In this document: piece by piece, positions 18,886-31,630 of the stretch
Layout of the letters: each line of letters starts with the position of its first letter
How positions within the stretch are numbered: the first letter of the stretch is position 1
Assembly: GCF_016862915.1 (NCBI RefSeq)
Contig: NZ_BONW01000001.1
Location: forward strand, 434,001 to 498,000
Direction of reading: 5' to 3'
DNA from: Plantactinospora endophytica
GTDB taxonomy: Bacteria > Actinomycetota > Actinomycetes > Mycobacteriales > Micromonosporaceae
Length of the DNA: 64,000 nucleotides
Notes under the pieces: generated by a model
Seen by the model: the letters and a program-made list of their open reading frames with translations, nothing else
What the model was told of the DNA's origin: nothing
Database searches by the model: none
Translations under genes and position numbers: made by a program

Positions 18886-18914
18886 TTGCTGGAGAACACT
18901 GGAACTTGTACGCT
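18886..18914 (+). promoter_or_regulatory. Promoter of the four-gene nuclease/helicase operon
   Basis: TTGCTG (18886-18891) and TACGCT (18909-18914) are 17 bp apart, and seven bases separate the latter from the GTG at 18922. This is a well-formed leaderless promoter. Confidence 0.6.
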
Positions 18915-18921
18915 CCGGCTC

Positions 18922-19827
18922 GTGGCCGAGTCCATGGAAGCGCTCGAACGCAGGATCGACGCCCTCCGGGCCGAGATCCGGCGCTCGGTGGTGGCCCGGG
19001 ACACGGCCCGCACCAGGGGGCTCCGCGCCGAACTGCGCACCGCCGAGCAGGAGTGGGAAGAGGCCATCACCGACCTGGCGGAGGAGGCCGGCGACGCCCC
19101 GTCGGCCGGTGCCGCGCCGCCGGCCACCGCCGGCCGATCGTCCGCCGGCTCGCTTCTTCCGGTACGCGAGCAGGTGCACCACGCCCTCACCCTGCTCTCG
19201 GTGCCGGCGGCGCCGAAGCTGGTCGCCGAGGTGCACGCCGCGTTCTTCGGTGCGGCGGCGGCCGGGGCGCTCGCCGCCGGCAAGCTCACCCACCTGCGCC
19301 GGGACGAGAAGCGCTCGTTCTCCACAGCGCCGTACGCCCGGCCGTACTATCTCTGCGCGGCGCTGACCGCCGAGCACCTGGCCCCGGCGCGCGGCCTGGT
19401 CGCGGTCTCCACCTGGCCGCTGGAGCGGCGGGTCGTCGGCCCGCTCAGCCCCCGGGTCGACTTCCTCACCGCGGCCGTCCGGGTCGCCGAACGCGCCAAT
19501 ACGGTGCCGGCCGGCAACCCCATGCTGGCCCGGCTGGTGTGGCGGTTCGCCAGCAACATCCCCGGTGCGCTTGACATCGCCGGCCGACCAGACACAGTGG
19601 ACCCGGTGACGGTGATCAGGGCGGCCGAGGCGGAACGGGTGGTGCACGCCGACGCCGACCGGGCGCACCGGACGGCGGCGGCCGAGCGGGCCCGCCGACA
19701 GCTCGACCAGGTCGACCAGCTCTTCGGTAACACGCTGCGGACGCTGGCCGGGAACGTGGGAAACGTGTCCCGGCGGGGCGGAGCAGTACTGCGGGGCAAC
19801 CCGACGGCCCAGGAGAAGACGGCATGA
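18922..19827 (+). CDS. Unknown protein, first gene of the nuclease/helicase operon
   Basis: 301 residues, not recognised. Residues about 5-50 are a heptad-rich coiled coil (MEALERRIDALRAEIRRSV, LRAELRTAEQEWEEAI), then an Ala/Pro linker. The rest (about 80-300) is a helical domain with VREQVHHALTLLSVP, KLTHLRRDEKRSF, YYLCAALT and a C-terminal amphipathic helix. RRDEKRSF resembles wing regions of replication-initiation-like helix-turn-helix domains, so a DNA-binding role is possible. The start is fixed by the leaderless promoter. Its stop overlaps the nuclease start (ATGA), which argues that the products work together. Confidence 0.7.
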   Translation: MAESMEALERRIDALRAEIRRSVVARDTARTRGLRAELRTAEQEWEEAITDLAEEAGDAPSAGAAPPATAGRSSAGSLLPVREQVHHALTLLSVPAAPKLVAEVHAAFFGAAAAGALAAGKLTHLRRDEKRSFSTAPYARPYYLCAALTAEHLAPARGLVAVSTWPLERRVVGPLSPRVDFLTAAVRVAERANTVPAGNPMLARLVWRFASNIPGALDIAGRPDTVDPVTVIRAAEAERVVHADADRAHRTAAAERARRQLDQVDQLFGNTLRTLAGNVGNVSRRGGAVLRGNPTAQEKTA

Positions 19828-21038
19828 CGAGCATCAGCATGGGTACCAGCAGGAACACCGCCGAGCGGCTGGCCACGATCCGGGGCGGGGCGAAGCCGAA
19901 GCGGCACAACGCGCGTACGATCGCGGCGCTGACCCGTAACCCCGGCTGTGCCCGGCGGGCCGTACTCGACACGGCCGGGGTGGACAAGCAGCGGCTGGCG
20001 GCTTATATCGACTTTCCGGCCCGGTTCGGGCAGTCCGGGTTCGCCATCGCCCGGGGCAACGCGTTCGAGTCCCAGGTGAAGGCGAGCGGCGCCGCCGAGC
20101 TGGTGAAACTGCTCCGGGAACGGCTCGGGTTGCCGATCCCCGAGGTGGCGTACGACGACCTGGAGACGGTGACCGGGCGGGAGAAGGAGACCCCCGAGGT
20201 CCGGTACGCCCGCTCCCGCGCCCTGCTGCTCCGGGCCGCCGCCGGAGAGGACGGCGCCGGTACGCTCTTCGACCACCCGCTGCTCGGGCTGGACGTGGCA
20301 GGTCAGCGGGTCTACCTCGAACCGGACCTGATCGCCTTCCAGCACGAGGGGCGCTTCCACGTCGTCGAGATCAAGTCTTTCGCGGTGGTGGACGGGCAGG
20401 CCGACCCGGGCAAGGTGTCGGCGGCGGCGATTCAGTCCGCCGTCTACGTGCTGGCGATGCGGCAGATGCTGGCCGAGGCCGGGTACGACCCGGAGATCGT
20501 GGCGCACGACGTGGTGCTGATCTGCCCGCGCGACTTCTCCAACTCGCCGACGGCGGTGCTGGTCGACGTACGCAAGCAGTTGGCCGTGTTGCGGCGGCAG
20601 CTCGGCCGGATGACGAAGGTCGACACGATGCTGGCCGCCCTGCCGCCGAACCTCACCTTCGACCTGGCGCCGGACGCCGACGGGGTGCCGACCCGGGCCC
20701 CGGAGGCGCTGGTCGACGCGTTGCAGACGGTCGACGCCCGATACGCCCCGGACTGCCTGTCGGTCTGCGAGCTGGCCTACTTCTGCCGGGCCGAGGCACG
20801 CGGCTGCACCGCCGCGCTCGGCACCTCGGCCCGGGAGGAACTGGGCGGGATCGAGCAGGTCGAGACCGCGCTGGCGCTGGCGAAGGGCGAACTGTCCCCG
20901 GCCGAGGAGCAGACGGAGGCGGCGGCACTGCTCCGGAACGCCGCCCGGCTCCGCGCCGAGCTGCTGGCACCGGCCGGCGTGACGCTGCCGCCGACGCTGG
21001 CGCCGGCCGGGACGAGTGTGGCCGGGGCGGCGGGATGA
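19824..21038 (+). CDS. Cas4/AddB-like PD-(D/E)XK nuclease with Fe-S cysteines
   Basis: 404 residues. All RecB-family nuclease motifs are visible: E82 in GNAFE, D168 in LEPDLIAF, E182-x-K184 in VEIKSF, and Q204/Y208 in QSAVY. C42 near the N-terminus together with C311, C315, C321 and C328 near the C-terminus match the split Fe-S cluster layout of Cas4, AddB and Dna2 nuclease domains. It should cut single strands, probably at DNA ends or flaps opened by a helicase. It is translationally coupled to the first gene and is 100 bp upstream of the third. C-terminal 70 residues are helical and charged. Confidence 0.83.
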   Translation: MTSISMGTSRNTAERLATIRGGAKPKRHNARTIAALTRNPGCARRAVLDTAGVDKQRLAAYIDFPARFGQSGFAIARGNAFESQVKASGAAELVKLLRERLGLPIPEVAYDDLETVTGREKETPEVRYARSRALLLRAAAGEDGAGTLFDHPLLGLDVAGQRVYLEPDLIAFQHEGRFHVVEIKSFAVVDGQADPGKVSAAAIQSAVYVLAMRQMLAEAGYDPEIVAHDVVLICPRDFSNSPTAVLVDVRKQLAVLRRQLGRMTKVDTMLAALPPNLTFDLAPDADGVPTRAPEALVDALQTVDARYAPDCLSVCELAYFCRAEARGCTAALGTSAREELGGIEQVETALALAKGELSPAEEQTEAAALLRNAARLRAELLAPAGVTLPPTLAPAGTSVAGAAG

Positions 21039-21138
21039 TCCTTTCCGCGCGAGCCGGGTCGCACCACCTCGGGCGGAGACTGTCGAGCTGGGTGCACAGA
21101 CGGGGCGGCCGGGCGGGGACGGTTGCCGGGGCGGTGGC

Positions 21139-22662
21139 GTGAGCACGCTGACCGCGCTGGCCCGGGCCGAGGCGGTGGCGGCCGGGCACGCCCAGCGGAT
21201 CACGACCGTACGCCACCTGCACGTGTCGGACCGGCCGCTGGTGTTCCTGCCGCTGAGCATGGCCGGCGAGGCGAACGCACCGCTGGGGGCGCTGGTCGGC
21301 ACCGACCCGGTCGAGCCGAAACTGCTGGTGGTGCCGCAGCCGCGTAACCGGGACCAGCGGTTCGGCTTCGCCGCCGAGCTGGCCGAGGTGCTGCTGCCCT
21401 ATCTGGACAGCTTCCGGGGTGTCACGGAGGCGGTCGCCGCCAACCGGGGCCGGGAGGTCCGCTACCGGTACGTCGACGCGCCGCAGGTACTGGTGCCCAA
21501 CTCGGCGGGGATCGGGTTCGTCCGGCTGTTCGGGCGGTCGACCCGGTTCCGGCGTACCGACGGGGACTATCCGGTGCATCCGTCGGTGCCGCTGCTCGGG
21601 CAGTGGTTGACGTTCCTGGCGGACCGGGCCGAACATCCGGGCTCGGGGATGCTGCTGGCGATGACGGAGGCACTCGGGCTGCACTGGGCGACCGGGCAGT
21701 CCGCGCTGGAAGACGCGCACCTGGCGGCGCTGCTCGCCTGGATCGACCCGGGCGACGGGCTGACCGGGGCGGATGCGGCGGTGGTGGCCGAGGACCCGTT
21801 GCGCTGGCCGCCGGCCGGGCCGGCCACGGATCCGACCTTCGACAACGAGATTCTGGCGCCGGCCATGACGGCGTACGAGGAGGCGGCGGCGAGTGGCGAG
21901 GAGGTACGGCGGTCGCGGGCTCGGGGCGTACTCGAAGAAGCCGTGCGGTCGCAGCTCACGCCGACCTGGGAGCTGATGTGGCGGGGCGTGTCGCTGCTCC
22001 GGAGACTGCCGGCCGGGGCGCGGGTGGACGGGCGCTGGGCCGAGGACCGGGACGTGTTCAGCAATTTCACGCTGTATGTCGACGGGGGTGGCTATCCGCA
22101 GCCGCGCCGGGACGGGGCGGTCAACGCGGCGCAACGCCTGCACCGACTCGAACGCGCCCTCCAGTCGTACGCCGTCCAGCGCGCCTACGACGACCCGCTG
22201 GTGATGGCCGATCATCGGCTGACCGGGGAGGCATTTGTCGGTGAGGTGACGTTGGCGGACCCGCACCGGATCGACGACAGCGGGAAGCGGCGGGTGCTGC
22301 GGCCTCGGATCCAGGTAACGACCGGGGATGTGGTGCTGGTGACGGTGGGGGCGGTGCTGCACTCGCCGAGCCGGCCGGGGCAGAAGGCGCGAGTGGTTTT
22401 TGTGACGCCGGACTTGTCGACTGGGCAGACCGATGTGGTGCTGGAGTTGTCGGGTGGGCTGGGGCGGTCGCTGAGCCCGGCGCCGGGGAGCGTGCCGGAG
22501 GTGGGCGACCGGCTCTGCTACACGACGCTGTCGGACTCGTTCATGCCGCCGGGAGAATTCCCGAGCCGGGAGGAGACGCCGTGGACGCACGGCGGGCCGC
22601 CGCAGGCGTACGAGGAGCCGGTCGCGCCGAGTGTCGAGGATGCTCGGGAGGAGTGGGCGTGA
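21139..22662 (+). CDS. Unknown large protein between the nuclease and helicase
   Basis: 507 residues, not recognised. It has no membrane segment and no NTPase motif. Notable parts are RHLHVSDRPLVFLPLSMAGE and VPQPRNRDQRFGF near the N-terminus, a tryptophan-rich centre (WELMWRGVSLLRRL), and a beta-rich C-terminal part (about 360-450, e.g. VTTGDVVLVTVGAVLHS then ARVVFVTPDL) that could be an OB-like fold. The GTG at 21139 is chosen because codon style begins there. Its stop overlaps the helicase start (GTGA). It may be the scaffold or substrate-recognition subunit. Confidence 0.72.
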   Translation: MSTLTALARAEAVAAGHAQRITTVRHLHVSDRPLVFLPLSMAGEANAPLGALVGTDPVEPKLLVVPQPRNRDQRFGFAAELAEVLLPYLDSFRGVTEAVAANRGREVRYRYVDAPQVLVPNSAGIGFVRLFGRSTRFRRTDGDYPVHPSVPLLGQWLTFLADRAEHPGSGMLLAMTEALGLHWATGQSALEDAHLAALLAWIDPGDGLTGADAAVVAEDPLRWPPAGPATDPTFDNEILAPAMTAYEEAAASGEEVRRSRARGVLEEAVRSQLTPTWELMWRGVSLLRRLPAGARVDGRWAEDRDVFSNFTLYVDGGGYPQPRRDGAVNAAQRLHRLERALQSYAVQRAYDDPLVMADHRLTGEAFVGEVTLADPHRIDDSGKRRVLRPRIQVTTGDVVLVTVGAVLHSPSRPGQKARVVFVTPDLSTGQTDVVLELSGGLGRSLSPAPGSVPEVGDRLCYTTLSDSFMPPGEFPSREETPWTHGGPPQAYEEPVAPSVEDAREEWA

Positions 22663-24038
22663 GTTCTTCTGGGCTGCTGGTGCCCCGTGGTGGCGGGTCG
22701 GGGCGGTTGGTGTTGCCGCCGGGTGAGGCGGCGCGGCAGGTGATCGGAGAGGTGTTGGCCGACCTGCACAGCGGTCAGCATCGTGGGGTGGTGGTGGACT
22801 CGCCGCCGGGGGCGGGGAAGTCGACGCTTGTGGTGCGGGCGGCGGGTGAGCTGGCCGAGGCGGGTGAGCCGCTGATCGTTATCGCGCAGACGAACGAGCA
22901 GGTCGACGACCTGATCGACCGGTTGGCGCAGGCGAAGCCGGAGCTGCCGATCGGGCGGCTCTCGGCGAACGACTACACAGCGACGGACCGGATCAAGAAC
23001 TATTCGACGGTCCGGGTCGCGGCGAAGGTCGCGGACCTCGGCGGGTCGTCCGTCATCATCGGTACGGCCGCCAAGTGGGCACTGGTGCCGGAGGGGCGCT
23101 GGCCCTGGGCGATCGTGGACGAGGCGTACCAGATGCGGTCGGATGCGCTGCTGCGGGTGGCGGGGCGGTTCGACCGGGCGCTGTTCGTCGGTGATCCGGG
23201 GCAGTTGGATCCGTTCTCGACGGTGGAAACTGAGCGCTGGACCGGGCTGACCTGGGATCCGATGCAGTCGGCGGTGGCGGCGCTGCTGCGGCACAACCCG
23301 GAGCTGCCGGTACACCGGTTGCCGGTGTCGTGGCGGCTGCCGGCGTCGGCGGCCCCGGTGGTGGCGGAGGCGTTCTATCCCTTTACCGGGTTCTCGGCGG
23401 GGACTACTGCTGGGCAGCGGTCCTTGTCTTTTGCTGCGGCGGGGTTCGGGGGTGGGGCGGTGGACGAGGCGTTGGAGATGGCTGCCACTACCGGATGGGC
23501 GTTGTACGAGCTGCCGGCGCGGCACACCTTGCGGACTGATTCTGAGGCTGCGGCGGCCTGTGCGCGGTTGGCGTTGCGGGTGTTGGAGCGGGGTGCGGTG
23601 GCGGTGTCGGAGCGTTCTCCTGGGGGTGCTCCCGTTACCGCTGACCGGATCGCGGTCGGGGCGGCGCACCGCGACCAGGTGGCGGCGATCCGGGCGCAGC
23701 TCGGGGCGGCCGGGGCGGGGATCACGGTCGACACGGCGAACCGGTTGCAGGGGCGCGAGTACGACGTGGTGATCGTGCTGCATCCGTTGTCGGGGCGGCG
23801 GGACGCGACCTCCTTCCATCTGGAGGCGGGGCGGTTGTGTGTGCTGGTGTCGCGGCACCGGCACGCGTGTGTGGTGGTGGCTCGGGCGGGGATCAGCGAG
23901 CTGCTGGACGCCCATCCGTCGACCGAGGCGGTGCACCTGAACGTACCGGTCAAGTTCCCGGACGGCTGGGAAGCCAACCAATCCCTCCTAGGACATATCG
24001 CAGCCCACCGAGGCATGACTTCACCACACCTGACTTAA
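22659..24038 (+). CDS. Compact Upf1/Dna2-type SF1 helicase
   Basis: 459 residues with every SF1 motif in order: Walker A SPPGAGKST (48-56), motif Ia AQTNEQVDDL, motif II VDEAYQM (153-159), motif III VGDPGQL (177-183), motif IV SWRLP (224-228), motif V DTANRLQGREYDVVIV and motif VI LVSRHRHA. The DEAY of motif II differs from the usual DEAS/DEAQ. There is no room for extra domains, so nuclease and accessory functions must come from the co-encoded proteins. Codon third positions are richer in G/T here than upstream. It converges on the next gene with only six bases between. Confidence 0.85.
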   Translation: MSSSGLLVPRGGGSGRLVLPPGEAARQVIGEVLADLHSGQHRGVVVDSPPGAGKSTLVVRAAGELAEAGEPLIVIAQTNEQVDDLIDRLAQAKPELPIGRLSANDYTATDRIKNYSTVRVAAKVADLGGSSVIIGTAAKWALVPEGRWPWAIVDEAYQMRSDALLRVAGRFDRALFVGDPGQLDPFSTVETERWTGLTWDPMQSAVAALLRHNPELPVHRLPVSWRLPASAAPVVAEAFYPFTGFSAGTTAGQRSLSFAAAGFGGGAVDEALEMAATTGWALYELPARHTLRTDSEAAAACARLALRVLERGAVAVSERSPGGAPVTADRIAVGAAHRDQVAAIRAQLGAAGAGITVDTANRLQGREYDVVIVLHPLSGRRDATSFHLEAGRLCVLVSRHRHACVVVARAGISELLDAHPSTEAVHLNVPVKFPDGWEANQSLLGHIAAHRGMTSPHLT

Positions 24039-24044
24039 GCGGCC

Positions 24045-27000
24045 TCAGGCTGCGATGTTCCGGGCAGCCGAATAGACGTCGGGTGGGAGTGGCTTATCGA
24101 GCTGCCACAGTATGCGCATTGGCCGGCTGCCGTTGTGCGAGTCGTAGGTTATCGGCCCCGCATACAAGTACGGCGGAGCGCCGAGGTCTCCGTCGCGGAT
24201 CTTGGTCTCGCGGACGAAGAGATGCACAGTCGAACCACGCTCGACATGGTGGATGTAGCGCTGTCCTGTCGGAGACGCCGCCGTCGTGGTGCTCTGCGAC
24301 TCCCATTGGAATAGCTCGTCGGTGATGGCGCGGTCGGCGTACATGGTGGTGGGGGAGTAGTGATGTTCAGACTTTTGCAGGGTGACGAAGAAGAGGTCCG
24401 CGTTCTCCTCCGGAACCCACTTCACACCTTCGCGGAGTTGAGTGGGGTTCGATACACCAAAGCCGGCGCACACCTCATCGCGGCTGTACCGGGCGTGAAC
24501 CCGTAGCGGGACCGTCGTGGAGGCTGGACCGGTCGTGACGCGATGGATGCGCTGTTGTAGCAGCTCAGCAAGCTGATCAAGTTCGTCGCAGCGATGCGGC
24601 TGCGCCCAGAGCCGCTGGAGTCCCTCCTCTTTGCGCTCAAGAGGGATCTTGTTGCCCCAGAGGATGATGTGCAGGAGGTCTCCGAGCCGGCCAGCGTCAG
24701 GGCGTCGCTTATTCGCCGCTTCGCGAAGCACGGCAAGCCGGTCCGGGTCGTCCAGGTGCAGCATCCGGCCGATCGCAGCGCCAAGTGTGACGTCATCCGG
24801 GTCGATGCGGCCCTGGCTCAAGCCCGCGCGACGGCGAAGCCCGGTCCAGCCACCGAGACTCTTGCGACGGTAGATGTCCTCCAGCTCCAAGCCAGTCTCC
24901 CGCAGGAAGTCAGCGAGCTTGACGTCGCCGAGGTCTCGCAATTCGTTGGTGAGGCTTCTAGTCGAGTTGGGTAAGGCTGCCTTGAGGTTGGCCAGGACGA
25001 TTTCCTTCGCCACCCGGTCAAGTTCGATGTGACATCCGCTCGGCAGGTGGGGGAAGTCATGCTCGACCGCGTGAGTTAGCGATCGGCGGCTGACTCCGGT
25101 CAGTGCTCGCCATCTGAGGTCGAAGCGGAAGTTGGTGTGCTGCCCACCAATAAAGTCGAGCACGGTGAGGCAGGCTTTGCCCTCGTCAAGACGCAGTCCT
25201 CGGCCAAGCTGCTGAAGGAAGACGGTTGCGCTCTCGGTAGGGCGCAGCATCAGGATCGTGTCGACCATTGGCAGGTCGATACCTTCGTTGAACAGGTCCA
25301 CAGTGAAGAGGATCCGCAACTCGCCACGCCGAAACTGGTCGATCAGCCGCCTGCGCTGGTCTCCATCGAGGCGCGAGGTCACGGCGGCGGCGGGCACGCC
25401 GGACTGGTTGAACGACTTGGCCATGAACTTCGCGTGGTCGACGCTTACGCAGAAGCCCAACGCTCGCATCTGGGCTACGTCGATCTTGTTGCGTACTGCA
25501 TGCAGGATCTTGGAAACCCGTGCGTCGTCGCCGGTGTAGAGCCGGCTTAGCTCTCCCAGGTCGTAGCCCTGGCCGCGCCGCCAGCGCAGGGTCGACAGAT
25601 CTACGTCGTCATGCAGACCGAAATACTGGAACGGTGCGAGGAGTTGCCGTTCGAGAGCTTCCCACAGGTGCAGTTCGACGGCGGTTCGTCCGTCGAACCA
25701 GTGCCGGACATTGCCGCCGTCCGCCCGGTCCGGCGTCGCGGTCAAGCCGAGGAGTTCGCGGGGTTGGAGCCGCTTCAGGACGCGGGCATACGTGGGTGCC
25801 TCGGCGTGGTGGAACTCGTCGACGATCACCATGTCGAACCGGTCGGCCGGCAGGTCCTCATCACCGAGTCGATGCAGTGATTGGATCGAGGCGAAGACGT
25901 ATCGCCAGTCACGCGGCTTTTCGCCCCCGACCAGTACGTCGCCGAAGCTGCCCTGATGCAGGACTTTCCGGAAGACCGATCGGCTCTGCCGAAGGATCTG
26001 CTCCTGATGTGCGATGAAGAGCAGGCTGTCAACCTTGCGGTTGTTCCAGAGACGGCGGTAGTCCAAGGCGGCGACCACGGTCTTTCCGGTGCCGGTGGCC
26101 ATCACCACCAGGTTGCGGTGGTGACCGTGGACCAGGCGTTCGGCTTCGAGGTCAGAGAGAATCTCCTGCTGATAGCCGTACGGATGGACGTCGATGTTCG
26201 TGATCTCGACATCGGCCTCGGCGGTGTCGACCAGGCGTTGACCACGTGGGAGCCGCTGACGACGCTCGTGTTGCAGAGCTTGACGCAGCCGGTCGCCGTG
26301 CACAGCCGGGTCGTACGTCTCGAAGGCCGGATCGTTCCAGTAGTCGGTGAACGTCGCCTCGAAGGTGTCGATGACGTGGGGCTGCTCAACATTGGAGACA
26401 CGGACGTTCCACTCCAGGCCGTCGACCAGGGCCGCCCTGGACAGGTTCGAGGAGCCGACGTAGGCGGTGACGACGCCACTGTTCCGGCGGAAGAGCCATG
26501 CCTTGGCGTGTAGCCGGGTGGTCTTCGTCTCGTACGAGACCTTGATTTCGGCACCGAGTTCGGCCAGCCGGTCCACGGCGCGTTGGTCAGTAGCGCCGAG
26601 GTAGGTCGTGGTGATGATCCGGAGGCGACCGCCGCGAGCGATCAACTCCTGCACCGACCCTTCCAGCATCCGCACGCCGTACCAGGTGATGAAGGCGCAG
26701 AGCAGGTCGACGTTGTCTGCCGACGCCATCTCACTGTTGACCTCGTGGCCGATGCGTGGCTGATGCCGGCCGTTCACCAGAAGGGCGCCGGTCGACAGCG
26801 GAGTGGTGGGTCGGACAGGAAAGTGTGGTGCGGCCGGTGGAATCGGGGGGTGGGCGATGGCGGTGAGGAGCTGCCTGTGCGCCTCGGCTAGTTGGTCATC
26901 GCTGCCGGCCGCCCGTGGCTCGATCTCGGCGATGCTCTCCGCGATGCGGTTAGCCATCTCAATCTGTCTGGCAAGTCGGTCGCTGTCGGTGCCGCTGACG

Positions 27001-27209
27001 GAGCGCAGCGCTCGTTGCGCCAGCCCGGTGAGATGCCTCGCCAGCACTACGTGGGCATCCGCTGGATCAAGTTCGGCTCGCTCGACCAGTTCAGGATCGA
27101 GATGCTGAAGCTTGTCGGCGAGCTCGTTGGTGATGAGATGTTCGTAGATGCCACGCGCCAGCTCCGTCACCTCGGAGAGGCTAGCGGCTCGTGCGCTGCT
27201 TCGGATCAA
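24045..27209 (-). CDS. PLD-like nuclease fused to SF2 helicase with DUF3427
   Basis: 1054 residues. An N-terminal helical region, a phospholipase-D-like domain (about 140-300; HAKAWLF at 234-240 and GSSNLSRAAL at 252-261), an SF2 helicase (ATGTGKT at 371-377, DEFH at 464-467, LTATPDR, QQLGRGLR) and a long C-terminal DUF3427-type region with its FVTLQKSE and RPMRILW ends. Such proteins occur in bacterial defence islands. The window's frame begins at a TTG (27209); a GTG at 27170 is an alternative. The base composition is clearly less GC-rich than the core genes, which points to transfer. Confidence 0.85.
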   Translation of the reverse strand: MIRSSARAASLSEVTELARGIYEHLITNELADKLQHLDPELVERAELDPADAHVVLARHLTGLAQRALRSVSGTDSDRLARQIEMANRIAESIAEIEPRAAGSDDQLAEAHRQLLTAIAHPPIPPAAPHFPVRPTTPLSTGALLVNGRHQPRIGHEVNSEMASADNVDLLCAFITWYGVRMLEGSVQELIARGGRLRIITTTYLGATDQRAVDRLAELGAEIKVSYETKTTRLHAKAWLFRRNSGVVTAYVGSSNLSRAALVDGLEWNVRVSNVEQPHVIDTFEATFTDYWNDPAFETYDPAVHGDRLRQALQHERRQRLPRGQRLVDTAEADVEITNIDVHPYGYQQEILSDLEAERLVHGHHRNLVVMATGTGKTVVAALDYRRLWNNRKVDSLLFIAHQEQILRQSRSVFRKVLHQGSFGDVLVGGEKPRDWRYVFASIQSLHRLGDEDLPADRFDMVIVDEFHHAEAPTYARVLKRLQPRELLGLTATPDRADGGNVRHWFDGRTAVELHLWEALERQLLAPFQYFGLHDDVDLSTLRWRRGQGYDLGELSRLYTGDDARVSKILHAVRNKIDVAQMRALGFCVSVDHAKFMAKSFNQSGVPAAAVTSRLDGDQRRRLIDQFRRGELRILFTVDLFNEGIDLPMVDTILMLRPTESATVFLQQLGRGLRLDEGKACLTVLDFIGGQHTNFRFDLRWRALTGVSRRSLTHAVEHDFPHLPSGCHIELDRVAKEIVLANLKAALPNSTRSLTNELRDLGDVKLADFLRETGLELEDIYRRKSLGGWTGLRRRAGLSQGRIDPDDVTLGAAIGRMLHLDDPDRLAVLREAANKRRPDAGRLGDLLHIILWGNKIPLERKEEGLQRLWAQPHRCDELDQLAELLQQRIHRVTTGPASTTVPLRVHARYSRDEVCAGFGVSNPTQLREGVKWVPEENADLFFVTLQKSEHHYSPTTMYADRAITDELFQWESQSTTTAASPTGQRYIHHVERGSTVHLFVRETKIRDGDLGAPPYLYAGPITYDSHNGSRPMRILWQLDKPLPPDVYSAARNIAA

Positions 27210-30589: not shown

Positions 30590-30745
30590 CTACGCCCGAC
30601 CCGGCCGGCGTTGGCCCGAGCGGTCGGATCGCCGCCCGCCCGGCGGGCACCGGCCGCCGAACGGACCACGACGGTACGACAACGACCGCCAGACCCGGCC
30701 CACAAATCGATGCTTCTCCGAAGCGTCCTCGGATACCGTTCCCGC

Positions 30746-31630
30746 ATGCCGGACCCGTCCGCCGAAGAGCTGCTCGCCGACTTCACCCCGCCCCGGCCCT
30801 ACACCGTCGACCTCGTCTCCACCGCGCCGACCGTCGGCGGCGTGCACGTGGTGATCGACGACGGCGAGGTCGTCTACGTCGGCGAGACCGGCCATCTGCG
30901 GGAGCGCCTCCGCACCCACCTGCGCGGCAACCGGGGCTCGTCGGTGCTGCACAAGCAGGTCGGCGAGGAACTGGACAGCGGCGGGACGACCACCGCCTCC
31001 GCCGACGACATCGCCGGCTGGCTGGGCGGGCGGACGCTCCGCTGGCGGGTCACCGAGGATCGGCTCAAGCTCAAGGCGGCGCTGGTGTCGCGGCTGAATC
31101 CGCGCTTCAATCACCAACTCCGCACCAACCTGCCGGCCCGTCCGGACGCCACCGCCGGACCCGCCACCTCGGACGGGCCGTCGGGCCCGCCCGACGAACC
31201 CAACCCCATGCCCGCGCCCGCCGAACAGGCCGAAGGCCGGCGGCGCCGCAAAGCCGAGGTCACCGTCCGGCAGGGCCAGCCGGACTTCCGCCGCCAGCTT
31301 TTCCAGGCGTACGACGGCAGGTGTGCGATCTCCGGCTGCAACGTCGACGCCGCGCTCCAGGCGGCACACATCAGCCCGTACGACGGTCCGGCGACCAACA
31401 CCGTCAGCAACGGTCTGCTGCTCCGGGCCGACCTGCACAACATCTTCGACCGTGGCCTGCTCTGGATCGACGACGATTACCGGGTACGCCTCGCCGCCAG
31501 CGTCCGCGACCACTACGCCGACTACGACGGTCAGCCTCTCCGCCTGCCGACCCGCTCCGAACATCGGCCGGACCGGGCGGCCCTTCGGCTGCACCGGGAC
31601 ACCATGGTGGACGTCGCACCCGCTCTCTGA
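30746..31630 (+). CDS. GIY-YIG / HNH fusion endonuclease
   Basis: 294 residues with two nuclease domains. The N-terminal GIY-YIG-type domain (about 28-125) shows VGGVHVV and VVYVGETGHLRERLRTHL. The C-terminal HNH_2-type domain (about 180-255) shows FQAYDGRCAISGC, LQAAHISPYDG, SNGLLLRADLHNIFDRGLLWID, giving the H, N and H residues. A Pro-rich linker joins them. Such fusions are found among restriction-like enzymes. TACCGT six bases before the ATG gives a leaderless start. No methyltransferase partner is present nearby. Confidence 0.82.
   Translation: MPDPSAEELLADFTPPRPYTVDLVSTAPTVGGVHVVIDDGEVVYVGETGHLRERLRTHLRGNRGSSVLHKQVGEELDSGGTTTASADDIAGWLGGRTLRWRVTEDRLKLKAALVSRLNPRFNHQLRTNLPARPDATAGPATSDGPSGPPDEPNPMPAPAEQAEGRRRRKAEVTVRQGQPDFRRQLFQAYDGRCAISGCNVDAALQAAHISPYDGPATNTVSNGLLLRADLHNIFDRGLLWIDDDYRVRLAASVRDHYADYDGQPLRLPTRSEHRPDRAALRLHRDTMVDVAPAL

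Follow-up and report, generated by a model that had tools for sequence, protein, structure and literature searches.

A tightly coupled three-gene unit of Actinobacteria as a candidate split Dna2-like DNA-end processor, with an optional, probable regulator gene

The window analysed here is a 64,000-nucleotide stretch of Plantactinospora endophytica (contig C1, positions 434001-498000, of a 9.68-Mb genome in 90 contigs). It carries four co-directional genes at 18922-24038, coupled by ATGA between genes 1 and 2 and by GTGA between genes 3 and 4, as a first-pass annotation had described (Table 1). Genes 2, 3 and 4, which encode a nuclease-like protein, a protein of no known family and a helicase, form a tightly coupled trio, whereas gene 1 is optional. 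Judged from sequence, there is in our view an even chance that the trio is a split Dna2-like processor of DNA ends, whose core copies would serve repair and whose mobile copies would work with SbcCD or defence systems, gene 1 being a regulator.

The coupling of the trio is visible from gene 4 alone (L and G numbers below denote loci and genomes). Named genomes were scanned with a gene 4 alignment and the best 80 of 558 confirmed stretches taken. In 77 of these 80 loci gene 4 is immediately preceded by a gene 3 in the same orientation, so the linkage is not chance, and in 72 of the 77 gene 2 comes before gene 3, the other five being at contig ends. The three loci without an adjacent gene 3 are two from Micromonospora and one contig end. 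Gene 4 is also present in all 15 gene-3-bearing genomes tested. Among 29 genomes lacking gene 3 (all 9 of the Streptomyces-genus sample and 20 of 59 from the window's family), gene 4 was not found in 27 (E 1e-30) and gene 2 was not found in 28 (E 1e-15), using searches that detected 9/9 and 11/11 positive controls, respectively. Both genes are missing from 27 of the 29, and the other two are contig-end breaks: in G849 fragments of both genes lie at two contig ends, and in G858 gene 4 begins 262 bases into a contig and gene 2 was not found. Save at contig ends, genes 2-4 were not found apart in the genomes tested, and the first-pass annotation's own worry, that homologues of genes 1 and 3 might occur mostly without the nuclease and helicase, falls away.

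The joints between the genes vary. In the first 19 loci, gene 2 overlaps gene 3 in 17/19 and gene 3 overlaps gene 4 in 15/18, start choice permitting. A longer gene 3 frame of 548 aa can be read in the window from 21016; relatives align from the 21139 start, which supports that start weakly, their own starts having been chosen as those nearest to it. In the genus labelled g2, gene 4 is kept approximately 17-49 kb from gene 3 (five genomes) or on another contig (two). A mobile insertion between the two genes was considered and rejected: the stretch in G726 holds ordinary metabolic and regulatory genes, read by eye, and a relative of the window's restriction enzyme, so that rearrangement is likelier. 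A RhuM-like frame (by eye) separates the two genes in a same-genus genome (L055:2937-4058). In G717, approximately 3 kb between genes 2 and 3 (L133:5269-8332) end in a piece like the start of gene 1, as if by partial duplication.

Across the phylum, 15 of the 396 genomes sampled yielded gene 3, which was also found in 4 of 247 genomes of the class of its most distant match (G252), in 91 of 150 species of the window's family, the Micromonosporaceae, and in 141 of 150 species of a genus labelled g8. This genus is identified as Streptomyces because the tree places its core copies with named Streptomyces loci. Genes 2 and 4 accompany gene 3 in all of the best 30 g8 loci fetched, and the Streptomyces core loci share neighbours, with one gene family in 11/11 loci and two more in 10. 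The trio extends to the Acidimicrobiia and the Chloroflexota; at the Chloroflexota locus (L157, Candidatus Viridilinea mediisalina) the gene 2 match is weak, at 50 bits. A tree of joined gene 3 and gene 4 (109 rows, quick method), in which long branches make the deepest splits untrustworthy, largely follows taxonomy. Streptomyces core copies form one group, with mobile Streptomyces copies elsewhere, and Nonomuraea and Actinomadura copies cluster by family. The trio looks like an old unit of mainly vertical descent, as would be expected of repair. The first-pass annotation had set its proposed end-processing or anti-phage machine against a universal core locus with a housekeeping repair function, and in Streptomyces the trio comes close to being a universal core locus. 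The gene 3 protein query found no copies in viral contigs or phages. It found three in plasmid-collection records, one of which, from Nonomuraea and 11.9 Mb long, is probably chromosomal. Streptomyces plasmids carry two copies, and another sits approximately 7 kb short of the end of a genome that is a single contig.

Gene 4 had been read as a minimal Upf1-type superfamily 1 (SF1) helicase, and this holds: it matches Pfam AAA_11 and AAA_12 above cut-off (UvrD_C_2 falls below), and DNA2 is the best match in both profile searches of solved structures (E 3e-13 and 6e-19). The DNA2 motor is preceded by a stalk and a barrel. As the alignment with DNA2 (E 6e-19) starts at the first strand of the motor and runs to motif V, gene 4 lacks both. 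It has no HerA-like family match in Pfam, PADLOC or NCBIfam.

Gene 2 contains Glu82, Asp168, Glu182-x-Lys184, Gln204 and Tyr208, together with Cys42, Cys311, Cys315 and Cys321. Residues in the pattern E, D, ExK and QxxxY with four cysteines characterise a PD-(D/E)XK nuclease with a Cas4-type iron-sulphur (Fe-S) site, and this Cas4/PDDEXK_1 pattern is found across 107 aligned relatives of gene 2. Glu82 is kept in 100 of the 107, Asp168 in 102, Glu182 in 97, Lys184 in 98 (103 rows being ungapped at the latter two sites), Gln204 in 103, Tyr208 in 102, Cys42 in 102 and Cys311/315/321 in 106; gaps make up 3-4 of the non-kept rows at most sites, and near-copies are included (e.g. L038 and L143). The motif residues still align down to 22% identity, and the cysteines are spaced C-x3-C-x5-C in most copies. 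The retention of Glu182 in 97/103 and Lys184 in 98/103 ungapped relatives suggests that cutting is normally under selection. The earlier reading is supported in placing a nuclease-like gene 2 and a helicase in one unit with gene 3, and the helicase profile has DNA2 as its best solved match. The window's gene 2 matches neither Cas4 nor PDDEXK_1 (PF01930, PF12705) at the curated cut-off, and PDDEXK_1 matches in the family are weak, occurring in 3 of 17 members with a best E of 0.0025. Since homology searches with gene 2 are weak, its nuclease fold is a prediction.

Gene 3 has no significant match in Pfam, NCBIfam, PADLOC or PDB sequences, where matches are at chance level only. A hint of a barrel, from a crude reading of residue propensities and from TOBE_2 matches in 2 of 39 sequences, is too weak and was not used. 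G613, G643, G665 and G684, all four examined of one clade, have genes 2 and 3 joined in a single open frame, and gene 4 stays separate in these genomes. By eye, the fused forms have altered nuclease residues and a cysteine spacing of C-x2-C-x5-C.

Eukaryotic Dna2 is among the known systems closest to the trio. The helicase domain of Dna2 is the best solved match of the gene 4 profile, gene 2 has nuclease-type residues and four Fe-S-type cysteines, and the domain order of Dna2, nuclease-linker-helicase, equals the gene order 2-3-4. The trio differs in being three chains, whereas Dna2 holds both activities in one, and in the C-x3-C-x5-C spacing of most copies; gene 2 has no significant sequence match to the Dna2 nuclease, and gene 3 matches nothing. 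AddAB, RecBCD and AdnAB are likewise helicase-nucleases for DNA ends. Their motors are of the UvrD type and fused to the nuclease, whereas gene 4 is of the AAA_11/AAA_12 type and genes 2 and 4 are separate chains. Two adjacent long frames on contig C2 of the window genome contain PDDEXK_1 domains and are probably AdnAB. Gene 4 partly matches MkoA (2e-11) and MkoC (9e-11) of Mokosh, and PLuB_AAA of PLuB (3e-14, far under cut-off), but these models exceed 1000 residues, and genes 1-3 match nothing in the 2023 PADLOC anti-phage models at E up to 1. In the part of the Cas4 survey available to us, Cas4-like nucleases are coupled to helicases, sometimes in defence loci, as UvrD-Cas4 and COG1205-Cas4, their partners being UvrD-like (SF1) or YprA-like superfamily 2 (SF2) enzymes; that part does not mention a Dna2/UPF1-type partner with a gene 3 protein (Hudaiberdiev et al., 2017; PMC5704561). 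Nor is the trio mentioned in the available part of a pPIWI-RE paper (PMC3702460). The first-pass annotation knew of no described system with this gene set, and this stands: genes 1-3 have no significant match in any of the three family libraries (Pfam, PADLOC and NCBIfam), and no description was found in the open-licence PMC literature, outside which most subscription journals lie.

The presence of gene 1 tracks a promoter of distinctive build. Upstream of gene 1 the order is CTGG-N6-CTGG (10-bp phase), TANNNT, 6-7 nt and the start codon; in the window the repeats are CTGGAGAACA and CTGGAACTTG. Between 150 bp upstream of the gene start and 30 bp inside the gene, YTGG-N6-YTGG occurs in 42/49 loci with gene 1 (shuffled expectation 0.72 loci), and upstream of gene 2 in 0/55 loci without gene 1 (expectation 0.62 loci). 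Stricter forms of the repeat give 38/49 and 28/49, again with 0/55. These counts are descriptive, since the pattern was derived from part of the same loci and loci within a genus are related; the DNA upstream of gene 1 is common to several families. Of the seven gene-1 loci without a match, at least three (L141, L142 and L037) have near-repeats, and another three are probably cases where the real start of the gene was missed. A stricter pattern, CTGGNNANNNCTGGAAC, has only two matches in the 9.68-Mb genome, one being the site of this operon. TANNNT ends 6-7 nt before the start in 40 of 42 gene-1 loci having repeat, box and start, a clustering tighter than the 3-14 nt range within which the nearest match was taken, itself a choice that favours short gaps. 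With 7 nt in the window, the comparison supports the leaderless promoter proposed earlier.

Gene 1 itself gives weak library matches only, mostly of coiled-coil type, and its profile matches helical chains weakly among solved structures. Profile searches with genes 1 and 3, which the first-pass annotation had suggested, thus yielded weak helical matches for the former and nothing significant for the latter. An alignment of 14 gene 1 sequences, including that of the window, has 71 invariant columns, and a middle segment resembles a winged helix-turn-helix (HTH) by eye. Gene 1 is present in two of eight genomes tested and was seen neither at the core locus of Streptomyces nor in the distant classes. 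A conserved gene upstream of gene 2 in Streptomyces, first taken for gene 1, is a PAP2 phosphatase in L026. Because gene 1 is missing from the core copies and tied to an operon-specific repeat, a four-subunit machine is not supported; of the proposed four-gene co-occurrence in actinobacteria, genes 2-3-4 do travel together and gene 1 is optional. Its tracking of the repeat (42/49 against 0/55) fits an operon-specific transcription regulator, the probable role of gene 1, which may bind the CTGG repeats and act through them.

Some gene-1 copies also have characteristic neighbours. Searches with the SbcCD proteins of L037 and L041 found sbcD near the trio in 14/50 gene-1 loci, 13 of which also have sbcC; L139 has sbcD alone, and in L040 SbcCD is broken into several frames. 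Such linkage is seen at three positions in the tree and takes two forms: the genes are divergent in Streptomyces, whereas in Virgisporangium and Kibdelosporangium all run in one direction (gene 1-gene 2-gene 3-gene 4-sbcD-sbcC). JetABCD (Wadjet) follows in 5/50 gene-1 loci, and a JetA3 gene lies near the L141 copy. Mre11-Rad50, of which SbcCD is the counterpart, works with Dna2 or HerA-NurA in end resection. The linkage of sbcD recalls that partnership, but no SbcCD was seen near gene-1-free copies, and gene 4 has no HerA-like family match. PADLOC searches (1e-20) of neighbours in 27 of 37 thinned gene-1 loci matched 107 proteins to 70 families, and in 27 of 38 other thinned loci 106 proteins to 36 families; these families overlap and are not counts of proteins, and the sets held 47 thousand and 34 thousand residues, respectively, before two proteins were dropped. 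On the gene-1 side mad3 was matched by 10 proteins, a model that SbcC also matches. On the other side 25 families were displayed, with one protein each, including models for a type III methylase and for GajB/RTasHel helicases. PprPDDEXK, a separate PDDEXK_1 protein, recurs in L024 and in each of L136-L138, in L138 as part of a pPIWI-RE island, and L024 has HmaA and HmaB next door. The defence-island link expected by the first-pass annotation therefore applies mainly to mobile, gene-1-bearing copies and is weak elsewhere. Such copies have moved into defence islands, as would be predicted for a module that degrades DNA and so can serve defence.

A split Dna2-like end processor would explain both the mainly vertical descent of the trio and the mobile copies in defence islands. 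Genes 2, 3 and 4 would then make one DNA-processing machine. Its ATP-driven SF1 motor would be gene 4, the strand that this motor feeds would be cut by gene 2 as an Fe-S PD-(D/E)XK nuclease, and gene 3 would be a scaffold joining the two, which may also supply the stalk or barrel absent from the minimal motor. The trio would load at DNA ends, unwind and trim them; we infer both this substrate and the polarity, as we do the role of gene 3. Core copies would serve DNA repair. Mobile copies would act with SbcCD (Mre11-Rad50) as the opener of blocked ends, and could finish DNA cut by an adjoining defence nuclease such as Wadjet. Gene 1 would be the operon-specific regulator at the phased CTGG repeats of the leaderless promoter, and not a subunit.

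Several results weigh against this reading, and some of them favour rivals. The gene 2 profile found no nuclease among solved structures, that of Dna2 included; it gave designed repeat proteins and a kinase only, judged to be chance or composition. The gene 3 profile found nothing significant there. An hhalign comparison of gene 2 with a PDDEXK_1 set gave E 0.0014 against 0.18-0.93 for unrelated controls, but some rows of the set were from the wrong strand, and cleaned sets of 3 and 4 rows gave 0.061 and 0.036 with gene 2 and 0.045 with the unrelated gene 4, so the comparison is not taken as proof. SbcCD lies near 0/60 loci without gene 1 (within the stretches examined), and was seen neither with the Actinomadura and Nonomuraea copies, nearly all of which have gene 1 and which show no Jet genes either, nor among the neighbouring genes searched around the window operon. 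The nuclease residues are altered in L024, L136-L138, L176, L186 and partly L129, with the cysteines kept, and by eye in the four fused forms, so that cutting cannot always be needed. Such copies would suit a gene 2 that is an Fe-S scaffold and not a working nuclease, the trio then being a translocase for clearing proteins or recruiting nucleases from elsewhere. The retention of Cys311/315/321 in 106/107 despite these changes points the same way, as does the PprPDDEXK adjoining the L138 copy, with relatives in L024, L136 and L137. The strong retention of Glu182 and Lys184 counts against it, and of the explanations considered it is the least probable. Scarcely more probable is a machine directed at RNA or R-loops, in which gene 4, as a motor resembling UPF1, SEN1 or SMUBP2, would run on RNA or RNA:DNA hybrids and the displaced strand would be cut by gene 2. 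As a single sequence, gene 4 is closer to SMUBP-2 (9e-8) than to DNA2 (3e-4), and its profile also matches SMUBP-2, NAM7 and the RNA-acting UPF1 and SEN1. One sub-type has pPIWI-RE neighbours, and pPIWI-RE is thought to act on nucleic-acid hybrids. DNA2 nevertheless outranks these matches in both profile searches, and the SbcCD and Wadjet partners are DNA enzymes.

A stronger competitor, which we still consider unlikely, is a dedicated anti-phage or anti-plasmid system, with the trio degrading invading DNA, gene 1 as sensor or regulator, and chromosomal copies as fixed defence genes. The mobile gene-1 copies beside Wadjet, SbcCD, pPIWI-RE, Hma or restriction genes speak for it, as do the window copy convergent with a type IV restriction enzyme, the two Streptomyces plasmid copies and the one near a genome end. 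That nearly every Streptomyces species has gene 3 speaks against such a system, however, and the common core neighbours and taxonomy-like tree are unlike most defence systems; the 106 neighbours of gene-1-free copies gave few defence matches, and genes 1-3 match no PADLOC model. A bolder form of the split-Dna2 proposal is possible but doubtful, at a probability barely above that of a dedicated defence system: that SbcCD and a three-subunit split Dna2, with gene 3 as a new scaffold family, are a bacterial counterpart of Mre11-Rad50/Dna2 resection in Actinobacteria and at least one member of the Chloroflexota, near-universal in Streptomyces, with mobile six-gene versions that carry their own phased-repeat leaderless promoter and have been added to Wadjet and further defences that cut DNA, whose products they would destroy from the ends so made.

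The surroundings of the window operon had been called defence-like, which is overstated. The type IV restriction enzyme that converges on gene 4 is a genuine instance, with relatives beside gene 4 in G717 and approximately 6 kb from it in G726; the next three genes encode a flavoprotein, an inositol-phosphatase-like protein and an HTH regulator. Elsewhere, an RNase_H_2-domain protein, RecB/TM0106-type nuclease-like by eye, lies 3' of the distant trio copy in G252 (L038:6061-7755, minus strand). A Prim-Pol domain protein lies two genes downstream of a Streptomyces core trio (L026:12606-13193), and its cluster turns up in nine of the loci compared.

Table 1. Features of the window operon, its neighbours and related loci (window positions unless a locus is given)
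Feature	Position	Strand	Remarks
Operator, two 10-bp-phased direct repeats CTGGAGAACA-CTGGAACTTG	18889-18908	+	In place of a -35 box; from YTGG-N6-YTGG comparison
-10 box TACGCT	18909-18914	+	7 nt 5' of GTG start; leaderless-type promoter
Gene 1, N-terminal coiled coil and winged-HTH-like middle segment	18922-19827	+	301 aa; GTG start; probable operon-specific regulator
Gene 2, probable PD-(D/E)XK (Cas4/RecB-like) nuclease, four Fe-S-type cysteines	19824-21038	+	404 aa; 4-bp overlap with gene 1 (ATGA)
Gene 3, candidate third core subunit, no known family	21139-22662	+	507 aa; GTG start; 100 bp 3' of gene 2; tracks genes 2 and 4 in genomes tested
Gene 4, minimal Dna2/UPF1-type SF1 helicase	22659-24038	+	459 aa; 4-bp overlap with gene 3 (GTGA); Pfam AAA_11/AAA_12; DNA2 best solved match
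Type IV methyl-directed restriction enzyme	24045-27209	-	PADLOC mREase_IV 8e-274; PLD, SF2 helicase and DUF3427
HNH-type protein	30611-31630	+	PADLOC HNH models, 2e-20
Natural gene 2::gene 3 fusions	L298:1303-3531; L299:2284-4413; L300:1815-4082; L301:2365-6000		Frames stop to stop
pPIWI-RE island (PprPDDEXK, PprRE, PprDinG)	L138:1633-7875	-	Divergent to trio copy with altered nuclease residues

Streptomyces have linear chromosomes with unstable ends, and an operon near-universal in the genus has no name in the libraries searched. If the split Dna2 reading is true, bacteria would possess a motor closely analogous to that of eukaryotic resection, together with a third subunit open to study. The trio offers a testable link from DNA repair, through SbcCD, to defence, through Wadjet and pPIWI-RE, and the promoter and its putative regulator would provide a simple handle on when the machine is needed.

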